From contig NZ_CP053941.1 in assembly GCF_013267195.1 (NCBI RefSeq), positions 1,364,001 through 1,428,000 of the forward strand: DNA of 64,000 nt. Direction: 5' to 3'. The notes beneath the pieces were generated by a model. It was not told where the DNA came from. It was given only the letters and a program-made list of their open reading frames with translations, and ran no database searches. Shown in pieces: positions 45,884 through 62,756 of the stretch. Every line of letters starts with the position of its first letter. The first letter of the stretch is position 1. The stretch comes from Halorubrum salinarum. Lineage in GTDB: Archaea > Halobacteriota > Halobacteria > Halobacteriales > Haloferacaceae. The position numbers and the translations under genes were made by a program.

Positions 45884-46027
45884 ACCGGCCACGTCGACGG
45901 CGAGGGCAATAATGCCCCGTGCCGGTCGCGAGGCTTGCGACGGGCCCGGCGATCGGCGGAGCGCGGTGAGGCCCCGGCGGCTCCGTCGATCGACCGCGTT
46001 TTTGTGGCCGGACCTCGAACCCGCTGT

Positions 46028-46582
46028 ATGACCCGAATCGTCGCCGTCTCCGGCAGCCGGAGCGCGGACAGCACCACCCGGGCCGCGCTCCGCGTCGCGC
46101 TCGACGCCGCGGCCGACGCCGGCGCGGAGACCGACCTGATCGACCTCGCGGCCGTCGACCTCCCGCTGTACCACCCCGACGAGGACGCGCAGGGCGACAG
46201 CGAGGCCCTGAAGCGCCGCGTCCGCGAGGCCGACGGCGTCCTCGCCGGCACGCCCGTCTACCGCGGCTCCTACTCGTCGACGTTCAAGAACTTCCACGAC
46301 TTCTGCGGCTCCGACGAGTACGCGGACACGGCCGTGGGGCTGCTCGCGACCGCCGGCGGCGGCTCCTACGGCGGGACCTTGGAACACCTCCGGTCGACGT
46401 TCCGGAACGTCCACGCGTGGACCGTCCCTCACGAGGTCGGGATCCAGGGCGCCTCCTCGAAGGTCGAGACGGCGGCGGCCGCCCCCGACCGCGGGCCGCG
46501 GATCACCGACGAAGACCTCCGCCGGCGCACCGAGCGGCTCGGACGGGTCGTCGTCGAACACGCCGAGCGCATGCGGGAGTGA
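46028..46582 (+). CDS. NADPH-dependent FMN reductase
   Basis: 184 residues, flavodoxin-like. N-terminal phosphate loop VSGSRSADSTTRAALRVAL (about 7-25); middle VLAGTPVYRGSYSSTFKNFHDFC (about 73-95) and LLATAGGGSYGGTLEHLRSTFRN (about 108-130) match the FMN and NADPH regions of the SsuE/ChrR group. It may reduce FMN, quinones or azo compounds. ATG at 46028; an earlier in-frame ATG is on shadow codons. Its TGA overlaps a GTG (46579-46581) at the start of the rhodanese region, suggesting coupling. A T-rich box at 45999-46003 lies about 25 nt before the ATG. Confidence 0.85.
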   Translation: MTRIVAVSGSRSADSTTRAALRVALDAAADAGAETDLIDLAAVDLPLYHPDEDAQGDSEALKRRVREADGVLAGTPVYRGSYSSTFKNFHDFCGSDEYADTAVGLLATAGGGSYGGTLEHLRSTFRNVHAWTVPHEVGIQGASSKVETAAAAPDRGPRITDEDLRRRTERLGRVVVEHAERMRE

Positions 46583-49307: not shown

Positions 49308-49321
49308 GTTCGTTTATAAAT
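49308..49321 (+). repeat. 14-bp direct repeat, left copy
   Basis: GTTCGTTTATAAAT, repeated exactly at 49597-49610. The core TTTATAAA is also a good TATA box. See the right copy for the interval between them. Confidence 0.85.
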
Positions 49322-49356
49322 CGTCGTTGCCACTACGACGAACACCGCCAAAGCCC

Positions 49357-49444
49357 CAGTCGCGAGGCCGGAGTACGCTCGTTGCGCTCCTCGCTCGCTT
49401 CGCTCGCTGCGGTGCTTACGTCGCCTACTCCGGCCTCGCGACTG
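49357..49444. repeat. 19-bp perfect inverted repeat
   Basis: CAGTCGCGAGGCCGGAGTA at 49357-49375 is the exact reverse complement of 49426-49444. The 50-nt interior is rich in GCTCGC-type short repeats and can fold further. The right arm abuts the hairpin element that starts at 49442. This is part of the 491-bp gap between the KH gene and the thermosome, in which I see no gene. Confidence 0.85.
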
Positions 49445-49595
49445 CCCCTCTGAGTCCCATCCGACCGCCACCGCAACCTCACCTCACGCCTCCCCAGCCT
49501 CGTCGCTGGCACCCTCCGCTTCGCTCCGGGAGCCAGCGACTCCCTCGCGCGTGCGGTTCGCGGCCTGCCGGCCGCTCACCGGCACGCGCCACCGC
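49442..49595. repeat. Hairpin-rich dispersed element, copy A
   Basis: Left end CTGCCCCTCTGAGTCCC then CCGACCGC; right end GGCACGCGCCACCGC. Inside are stems GTCGCTGGC/GCCAGCGAC (49502-49510 with 49532-49540), GCGGCC/GGCCGC (49560-49565 with 49570-49575), and a closing pair GCGCGTGC/GCACGCGC (49547-49554 with 49582-49589). Copy B at 61400-61600 shares the ends and the closing pair while its inner hairpins differ. Both are in intergenic DNA. No protein gene is inside. Confidence 0.75.
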
Positions 49596-49596
49596 C

Positions 49597-49610
49597 GTTC
49601 GTTTATAAAT
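49597..49610 (+). repeat. 14-bp direct repeat, right copy
   Basis: GTTCGTTTATAAAT, identical to 49308-49321. The two copies flank 275 bp that holds the 19-bp inverted repeat and hairpin element A. This arrangement is what a target-site duplication would look like, though a duplicated promoter box would also fit. Confidence 0.85.
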
Positions 49611-61273: not shown

Positions 61274-61399
61274 ATGTTCGCCTTATGCGGGCCGCCGGGT
61301 AAGGCGTGTCGCCTCGATACGTGTACTATGTGGCTGGTTTCGATATGACTGTTCGGTAGAGGGCCGTTAGCGAGTCGACGGACGACACCGCCTCGCCGG

Positions 61400-61600
61400 C
61401 TGCCCCTTTGATTCCCGCCCGACCGCAACCGCACAGCGCCTCACACCTCCCCAGCCTCGCGGTTCGCGCTCTCCGAGCGCTCACCGCGTCCAGCGAGAAT
61501 CGAAGATTCTCTGGCAGCCGGCGCATAGCGCCGGCGACCTCGCGCGTGCTCACTCGCGGCCTCCGCTTCGCTCCGGCCGCTCGCAGGCACGCGCCACCGC
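61400..61600. repeat. Hairpin-rich dispersed element, copy B
   Basis: Left end CTGCCCCTTTGATTCCC then CCGACCGC; right end GGCACGCGCCACCGC, matching copy A at 49442-49595. Inner stems: GAGAATC/GATTCTC (61495-61501 with 61505-61511), GCCGGCGC/GCGCCGGC (61517-61524 with 61528-61535), GCGGCC/GGCCGC (61556-61561 with 61575-61580) and closing GCGCGTGC/GCACGCGC (61542-61549 with 61587-61594). Sequences of the inner hairpins differ from A. It fills most of the 331-bp gap before the ABC ATPase stop codon; I see no gene in that gap. Confidence 0.75.
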
Positions 61601-61604
61601 GGGA

Positions 61605-62756
61605 TCAGCGTTGCTCCACGTCGATCACGTGCGCGTCTCCGGGGTCGAACCCGACCGCGACCGCGCCGTCGATGGGGTCCACGACGCGGACGACGAGTTC
61701 GCGGTCACCCCAGTCAAGCGTGACGCGCGTCGTCTCGCCGAGGAACTCCGCGCTGGCGACGGTCGCGCGCAGCGCGTTCTCGCCCGCGGAGGCCGCGTCG
61801 TCTCCGGAATCTCTGTCCGCGCCCGCGACGCGGAGGTTCTCCGGACGGACGCAGAAGGCGATCCGGTCGCCGACCGACGGGGCCGCGTCGGGGCCGGCGC
61901 CGGTCCGCACGCGGAGTGTCTCGTCGCCGCCGTCGACGTCGACCGCGAGTTCGCCTCCGGCGGACGCGTCGACCACCGTCCCGGCGAACACGTTGTTGTC
62001 GCCGACGAACTCGGCGACGAACCGCGTCGCGGGCTGACGGTAGACCGTGCGGGGCGCGGCCACCTGCTCGGGGGCGCCGTCGTTCATCACCGCCACGCGG
62101 TCGGAGATCGCCAGCGCCTCCTCCTGGTCGTGGGTGACGTATATCGTGGTGATCCCCAGCTCGGACTGGATGCGCTTGACTTGGGCGCGGAGCCGCTCGC
62201 GGAGGCGGGCGTCGAGCGCGCTCATCGGCTCGTCGAGCAGGAGCACGTCGGGGCCGGGCGCGAGCGCCCGCGCCATCGCGACGCGCTGCTGTTGCCCGCC
62301 CGAGAGGCTCTCGGGGTCGCGGTCGGCGGCGTCGGGCAGGTCGACCAGTTCGAGGAGCTCGGCGACGCGCTCGTCGCGCGTGACCCCCTCGGGCGGGTCG
62401 GCGAAGTTGAGCCCGTACGCGACGTTCTCGCCGACGGTCATGTGCGGGAACAGCGCGTAGCTCTGGAAGACGACGCCCACGTCGCGGTCCTCCGGCGGCA
62501 CGCCCGCGACCGACGCGCCAGCGAAGCGGACCGTCCCGCTCGTCGGCTCCTCGAACCCCGCGATCAGGCGGAGCGTGGTCGTCTTCCCGCAGCCGGAGGG
62601 CCCGACGAGCGTGAAGAACTCCCCCTCGCGCACCCGGAGCGTCACGTCGTCGACGGCGGTCGTTCCGCCGTAGCGCTTCGTCACGCCGTCGAGCTCGACC
62701 GCGACCTCGCCGTCGCTCTCGAACTCCGTGCCGCGCTCAGAGCCCACGGTGGTCAC
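61605..62756 (-). CDS. ABC transporter ATP-binding protein (thiamine/iron type)
   Basis: 383 residues, GTG start. Walker A GPSGCGKTTTLRLIAGFEEPTSG (about 53-75), Q-loop VVFQSYALFPHMTVGENVAYGL, signature LSGGQQQRVAMARALAPGPDVLLLDEPMSALDARLR (about 151-186), switch His in VTHDQEEAL. A C-terminal TOBE-type regulatory domain (about 255-383) is present, as in PotA, FbpC and MalK-like subunits. Its start overlaps the end of the permease gene by 20 bases, showing they form one transporter. The closest groups are thiamine and iron/phosphonate import. Confidence 0.9.
   Translation of the reverse strand: MTTVGSERGTEFESDGEVAVELDGVTKRYGGTTAVDDVTLRVREGEFFTLVGPSGCGKTTTLRLIAGFEEPTSGTVRFAGASVAGVPPEDRDVGVVFQSYALFPHMTVGENVAYGLNFADPPEGVTRDERVAELLELVDLPDAADRDPESLSGGQQQRVAMARALAPGPDVLLLDEPMSALDARLRERLRAQVKRIQSELGITTIYVTHDQEEALAISDRVAVMNDGAPEQVAAPRTVYRQPATRFVAEFVGDNNVFAGTVVDASAGGELAVDVDGGDETLRVRTGAGPDAAPSVGDRIAFCVRPENLRVAGADRDSGDDAASAGENALRATVASAEFLGETTRVTLDWGDRELVVRVVDPIDGAVAVGFDPGDAHVIDVEQR

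Follow-up and report, generated by a model that had tools for sequence, protein, structure and literature searches.

The closest described systems to the element analysed here are the REP sequences and REPINs with their RAYT genes (Bertels and Rainey 2011, PMC3116915). The likeness lies in short, extragenic, imperfect palindromes present in tens to hundreds of copies, in a single-strand fold with compensatory changes and, in some genera, in inverted doublets around a spacer. The haloarchaeal element is a high-copy, extragenic, palindromic repeat, and inverted doublets of it occur in several genera (loci L242, L255 and L259, and L231 in Halobaculum), with Halorubrum copies being mostly single. 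It differs from REPs and REPINs in that the unit is roughly 100-390 bp rather than a short REP and is mostly a three-hairpin singlet in Halorubrum, its consensus ends carry no GTAG/CGTC tag, no RAYT (Y1) gene lies beside its copies (the four Y1 genes in the genome were checked), and its sites are common to several species, with no movement seen. Among haloarchaea, the PATEs and SMRs of Haloquadratum walsbyi (PMC3119063) are likewise non-coding, palindrome-rich repeats with small inserts nested in their palindromes; the absence of SMRs from the large plasmid and the cases of a repeat that is flipped at a given position also have counterparts here. Judged by the descriptions of PATEs, the element, non-coding and 130-394 bp long, resembles them in being too short for a transposase and in lacking terminal inverted repeats. 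However, PATE palindromes resemble IS605-type ends, a likeness not found for the element in this genome, and PATEs show strain-specific insertions, of which there were none here among six genomes, one per species, compared over the window. Since a search beside the copies found no RAYT-like gene and no IS605-type end, we have not filed the element as a REPIN or a PATE.

Two further comparisons are informative. Structured RNA families in Rfam share covariation and conserved unpaired blocks with the element, and no relevant Rfam match was obtained at gathering score or at E values up to 5. Bacterial intergenic repeats of the BIME/ERIC type are chromosomal, intergenic, structured and present in both orientations, as is the haloarchaeal element, which differs from them in being class-wide in archaea, in its modular, exchangeable hairpins and in its G-tract internal loop. 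Our literature search, which took in open-access but not subscription literature, returned no published description of the element. It is apparently unnamed, and in kind it appears to be a dispersed extragenic palindromic element with an unusual strand-specific fold and a conserved G-tract loop.

The window, a 64,000-nucleotide stretch of Halorubrum salinarum (NZ_CP053941.1, positions 1,364,001 to 1,428,000), holds two copies, A and B, both outside genes. A sequence-only reading of the window had described them as hairpin elements with matching ends, and its details held up: CTGCCCCT is present in both copies (starting at 49441-49442 in A and 61400 in B), a 27-bp block is closely similar between them, with a few mismatches, CCTCCCCAGCCTCG and CCTCGCGCGTGC are internal to both, both end in the identical 15-mer GGCACGCGCCACCGC, and in both the GCGCGTGC/GCACGCGC stems are capped by GCGGCC/GGCCGC hairpins. 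The stop codon of an ABC-transporter gene (61605-62756, minus strand) is a few bases away from the end of copy B. The left edge proposed in that reading is not the end of the element, as a further 5' hairpin and a 57-bp unit lie upstream of it. The features are as follows.

49313-49357, plus strand: left unit of copy A (part of the 57-bp unit), TTTATAAAT at 49313-49321 and then GAACACCGCC; from the left-flank consensus of 64 copies and the 57-bp tandem repetition.
Within 49313-49357, plus strand: right part of the same unit, comprising the 5' strand of P0, CAAAG (49349-49353), and a C-tract.
49349-49452, plus strand: 5' hairpin module H1 of copy A, with P0 (CAAAG/CTCTG), a CCC/CCC internal loop, P1 and a loop; from covariation and the class-wide motif.
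49358-49375 pairing with 49426-49443, plus strand: long stem P1 of copy A.
49444-49462, plus strand: conserved 3' flank of H1 in copy A, family consensus GCCCCTTTSAGTCCCRCCC; a class-wide motif.
49489-49502, plus strand: conserved block CCTCCCCAGCCTCG of copy A.
49502-49540, plus strand: hairpin 2 of copy A (GTCGCTGGC...GCCAGCGAC), an exchangeable hairpin cassette.
49547-49589, plus strand: hairpin 3 of copy A, with outer stem GCGCGTGC/GCACGCGC, a bulge and a 3-bp stem.
Inner part of the same hairpin, plus strand: a 2x2 TC/TC internal loop (GA/GA on the minus strand) and the GCGGCC/GGCCGC stem.
49581-49610, plus strand: right end of copy A, GGCACGCGCCACCGC (49581-49595) and then TTTATAAAT at 49602-49610; from the family consensus.
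61382-61600, plus strand: copy B, whole element with its 5' hairpin deleted; from the same site in relatives.
61446-61459, plus strand: conserved block CCTCCCCAGCCTCG of copy B.
61459-61488, plus strand: hairpin 2 of copy B, a cassette unlike that of copy A.
61492-61538, plus strand: extra 47-bp cassette of copy B, with two hairpins (AGCGAGAATC..GATTCTCTGGCAGCCGGCGC..GCGCCGGCGAC).
61542-61594, plus strand: hairpin 3 of copy B.
61586-61600, plus strand: right end of copy B, GGCACGCGCCACCGC.

The family architecture was obtained by aligning all copies with their flanks, the left-flank consensus coming from 64 copies. The element is longer than first reported and comprises one or more 57-bp units, the 5' hairpin and then the hairpins already noted. 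The leftmost unit reads roughly TTTATAAATAGTYGACNGCGGATCGGCGGCGAACACCGCCAAAGCCCCAG and is single or repeated in 2-5 tandem copies (five in L210). Rightward of it lies module H1, made up of helix P0 (CAAAG/CTTTG), a symmetric CCC/CCC internal loop, the long stem P1 and a large loop, which is followed by TTTGAGTCCCRCCC and a C/A-rich linker, then by CCTCCCCAGCCTC and hairpin 2. The right part consists of TCCCTCGCGCGTGC, hairpin 3 and GGCACGCGCCACCGC, often with another TTTATAAAT after it. The consensus ends are CAAAGCCCC and GGCACGCGCCACCGC, and the proposal of a real element family with conserved ends is borne out. TTTATAAAT flanks many copies on both sides but is inherited together with the element, and the consensus of copies and flanks reveals no convincing inverted ends in Halorubrum copies. 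Copy A has all the family parts (49313-49610). Copy B has lost H1 by deletion, since relatives keep the full 5' hairpin at the same site (L202, L204-L208 and L210).

Several variations on this plan were seen. The 57-bp tandem units (49313-49357, and upstream units at L210 and L211) look locus-specific in sequence. The 47-bp cassette is a clean insert in copy B; its layout, built from different stems, recurs in further copies and species (coriense site A, G026 sites A and X2, and 1906892 in this genome), and it looks like a second, nested repeat. Copies at L137, L141 and L165 are enlarged by several extra paired hairpins, and among these hairpins are cassettes that recur, for example TCAGAACGC..GCGTTCTGA and after it CACGAGAGC..GCTCTCGTG.

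After merging, this genome holds about 66 copies. The main chromosome (2.94 Mb) carries 65 and the third replicon none; the sole copy off the main chromosome, on the second replicon (G000:C2 45243), has a degenerate core block and is without the 5' hairpin. BLAST with copy A as query found 40 further places in the genome (E 7e-52 to 6e-13), to which copy B as query added more, and the copies were mostly 73-89% identical. The 14-mer CCTCCCCAGCCTCG has 61 exact matches in the 3.34-Mb genome compared with one for its reversed control. It is found in 52 of 52 Halorubrum genomes, with 7-176 matches in each of the other 51 and controls near zero, the lowest count, 7, coming from one genome that is 82% complete. 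The sequence-only reading had proposed searching other Halorubrum genomes, and this search succeeded emphatically, with further copies in all 51.

Outside Halorubrum the 14-mer is patchy, and it is the 3' flank of H1 that reveals the wider range of the family. The 19-mer GCCCCTTTSAGTCCCRCCC matches exactly in 239 of 391 Halobacteria genomes, representing 61 of 86 genera, with no control matches; about 100 genomes from the phylum but outside Halobacteria gave no match. The minimal module in other genera is GAAAG-CCC-[P1]-CCCC-TTTC-AGTCCCRCCC, and at L242, L255 and L259 such modules form head-to-head doublets, that at L259 having matching outer ends (ACAGCCAGAAAG / CTTTCTGGCTGT). On a Halobaculum plasmid (L231), two elements stand head to head, each with a CCTCCCCAGCC block. 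A repeat family found in most Halobacteria genera apparently has no Rfam entry, and we offer GCCCCTTTSAGTCCCRCCC adjoining a hairpin as a signature for its annotation. Copies avoid plasmids: queries with copy A and the family consensus found none in phages and none in the Halorubrum plasmids searched (at least three, of 431, 301 and 607 kb), on which about 30 copies would be expected at this genome's chromosomal density, a density that varies between species. Plasmids of other haloarchaea gave only a few partial matches.

We propose, with confidence that is about even, that the element is an ancient, class-wide, non-coding chromosomal repeat family of Halobacteria whose selected form is a single-stranded fold of the minus strand, most likely as DNA, and which spread in the past as REPINs and PATEs do and is now maintained by vertical descent and ectopic gene conversion. 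The structure of the element appears to be under selection. As the sequence-only reading had suggested, structure is kept while stem sequence changes, with paired substitutions in the stems of H1. Among 119 Halorubrum copies, P1 position 5 is C-G in 66, G-C in 28 and T-A in 16 and is paired in 93%, compared with 42% in shuffled data (maximum 56%); P1 position 2 is paired in 86% (52% when shuffled), and P0 position 1, A-T in 91 and G-C in 21, is paired in 94% (67% when shuffled). Class-wide, P1 shows 95% pairing in 74 copies, counted only if at least 8 of 12 pairs formed, and as many as four kinds of pair at a position. The 5' side of the internal loop is CCCC in 119 of 119 copies, which the search partly imposed, and the 3' side is GCCCC in 115 of 119; a search blind to the loop arrived at this layout again for most of 110 copies. 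As the fourth C pairs with G, the internal loop is 3x3, CCC/CCC (GGG/GGG on the minus strand), and it is more conserved than the helices that flank it. In hairpin 3, the 2x2 TC/TC loop is present in 82 of 87 distinct variants; on the minus strand this is GA/GA, which in a CGAG context is a known stable tandem mismatch.

That the minus strand, relative to the orientation of the first reading, is the folded one is well supported. On the plus strand, 19 distinct variants of hairpin 3 carry A.C mismatches and none carries G.T, the corresponding numbers of distinct hairpin 2 variants are 15 and 5, and mismatches in P1 number 22 and 7 in Halorubrum (p = 0.008, a guide only, as related copies are not independent) and 17 and 6 class-wide; the asymmetry in P0, 7 and 4, is not significant. 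Read on the minus strand, a plus-strand A.C becomes a G.T or G.U wobble, and it is therefore the minus strand that appears to fold. Folding-energy predictions favour the minus strand in 85 of 85 copies, a comparison confounded by base composition. Part of the A.C excess could come from a strand-biased mutation process, as the unpaired tail also has G-to-A slightly above C-to-T. A bias driven by genes is an unlikely cause, because copies lie in all orientations relative to genes; a mutation bias specific to the element is possible. The plus strand favours GCTTCGC over GCGAAGC by 72:5 and GCTCGC over GCGAGC by 174:10, and d(GCGAAGC) forms a DNA mini-hairpin of exceptional stability (PMC4686876).

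It is on the question of DNA or RNA that the leading alternative arises, namely that minus-strand transcription yields a multi-copy structured RNA or a cis-acting 3' UTR element. We regard this as possible but rather unlikely. Both G.U pairs and tandem GA mismatches are features of RNA, and the strand-specific tolerance of wobbles, the GA/GA loops and the point covariation would all fit, as would the right-hand gene reading into the minus strand in 35 of 66 copies. In the other 31, however, that gene points away, so that no flanking gene would transcribe the minus strand from there. The right-end TTTATAAAT would appear to be too near hairpin 3 for a start that included the hairpin's 5' strand, and a promoter-like spacing, about 27 nt from TTATAAA to GAACACC in the left units, fits the plus strand. 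The strand-specific fold and paired substitutions favour the structured RNA suggested in the first reading, and the lack of an Rfam match counts against it. We favour DNA given the stable DNA mini-hairpin words, the mixed gene orientation, the want of a fitting minus-strand promoter and the restriction to the chromosome. Under our preferred reading, a protein or the recombination machinery may recognise the hairpin whenever the minus strand becomes single-stranded, and this is the function we would infer for it. The family bears on whether selection acts on a single-stranded fold of chromosomal DNA in a potassium-rich cytoplasm.

Comparison between species argues that sites are now inherited rather than newly colonized. 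Fifteen of the sampled Halorubrum genomes, this one among them, have a copy in one and the same orientation at site A, between the genes for a KH-domain protein and the thermosome; the rest have remnants or nothing. Across the 64-kb window, compared between this genome and five relatives at 86-89% identity (one genome per species), there are six occupied sites, each in at least three of the six genomes and two of them held here, with no private insertion. Three of the sites that are missing here are occupied in G016, the most distant genome, one of them in the opposite orientation, which indicates loss in this genome. Sites are thus common to species by descent, with losses. At 45884-46028, where this genome has no element, most relatives have a minus-oriented copy (L158 was compared), G016 has a plus-oriented one and tebenquichense a plus-oriented remnant.

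A non-autonomous mobile element of MITE type that is active at present is unlikely given these findings. Dispersal, a high and variable copy number, the doublets whose outer ends are inverted, found in other genera, and the flipped copy at one shared site in G016 are what such an element would produce. Against it stand the absence of private insertions in the window, the absence of copies from phages and Halorubrum plasmids, the divergence of the copies, which are not homogeneous, and the failure to find a resident IS of the IS200/IS605 types with matching ends. Element ends were found at none of 4 Y1-transposase (TnpA) and 13 TnpB loci, one proximity aside (L328), and no autonomous partner was identified among the IS200/IS605 and TnpB loci. 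The small non-autonomous element proposed in the first reading agrees with the way copies are dispersed and with the REPIN-like doublets of other genera, but neither current mobility nor a transposase partner was found. The doublets and extragenic dispersal lead us to infer a REPIN/PATE-like origin, in which the element may have spread by single-strand (HUH-type) transposition in trans. Because the comparisons yielded no case of an insertion opposite an intact empty site, the argument for past transposition is indirect.

Within this framework of inherited sites, hairpins are swapped whole between copies. Orthologous copies resemble each other no more than copies elsewhere do in P1 and the H1 loop, and barely more in hairpin 3. 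P1 similarity is 0.81 at the same site between species and 0.83-0.86 between different sites, and the corresponding values are 0.67 and 0.68-0.73 for the H1 loop, 0.70 and 0.68 for hairpin 3, and 0.66 and 0.58-0.61 for hairpin 2, the same-site values being inflated by some near-duplicate genomes. Identical cassettes, such as GTCGCTGGCACCCTCCGCTTCGCTCCGGGAGCCAGCGAC, occur at different sites in different species. The drift of hairpin sequence that had been suggested is therefore real in that stems change with pairing kept, but drift alone does not describe it. Conversion between copies is the simplest account of the exchange, and re-insertion at a given site might also replace the hairpins there. 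Haloarchaea are polyploid and have efficient gene conversion (PMC8223754), and it is plausible that ectopic conversion keeps the family uniform while upkeep is mainly by vertical inheritance. The family offers a natural experiment in how repeats persist without visible movement and how hairpins evolve by cassette exchange.

The same exchange, together with the conserved loop, could be accommodated by a chromosome-organising or pairing element, in which GGG/GGG loops on the minus strand would join distant copies through G-quartets in the potassium-rich cytoplasm. If true, distant regions would be brought together, driving hairpin exchange. The greater conservation of the loop than of the adjoining helices is in keeping with this, as are the restriction to the chromosome and the need for distant copies to meet if they are to exchange hairpins. 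Yet it would require strand extrusion, and the copy number falls to 7 in one genome, itself 82% complete; we consider it decidedly unlikely.

All of the approximately 66 copies lie between predicted genes, as called by a simple gene finder based on codon usage. In the orientation of the element, the flanking genes are +/+ in 22 cases, +/- (convergent) in 20, -/- in 15 and -/+ (divergent) in 9. The first reading had also raised a termination or attenuation module, which the stable hairpins between genes, often near stop codons, would suit. The mixture of orientations, divergent pairs included, speaks against it, as do the absence of a T-run after the hairpins in the window copies and family consensus, the conservation of the whole composite rather than of one hairpin, and the absence from plasmids, so that a terminator or attenuator is highly improbable. 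Chance resemblance of low-complexity DNA, conceivable at a GC content of 71% and with GCTTCGC-type words common, has virtually no probability and is ruled out by the 14-mer (61 exact matches against 1) and the 19-mer (239 genomes against 0).

Copies show no clustering of orientation along the chromosome (p = 0.87). Five close divergent pairs of copies each flank one short gene (G000:C1 286014/287030, 619502/620977, 990469/991228, 1333588/1334180 and 1430915/1432148), which by rough estimate is more than random placement gives. From their translations, read by eye, we take these genes to encode MsrA, thiazole synthase, a zinc-ribbon protein, a ferredoxin and HisA; they look like ordinary core genes, and a cargo role for genes between inverted copies was rejected. 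The pair at 1430915/1432148 is also present in five relatives.
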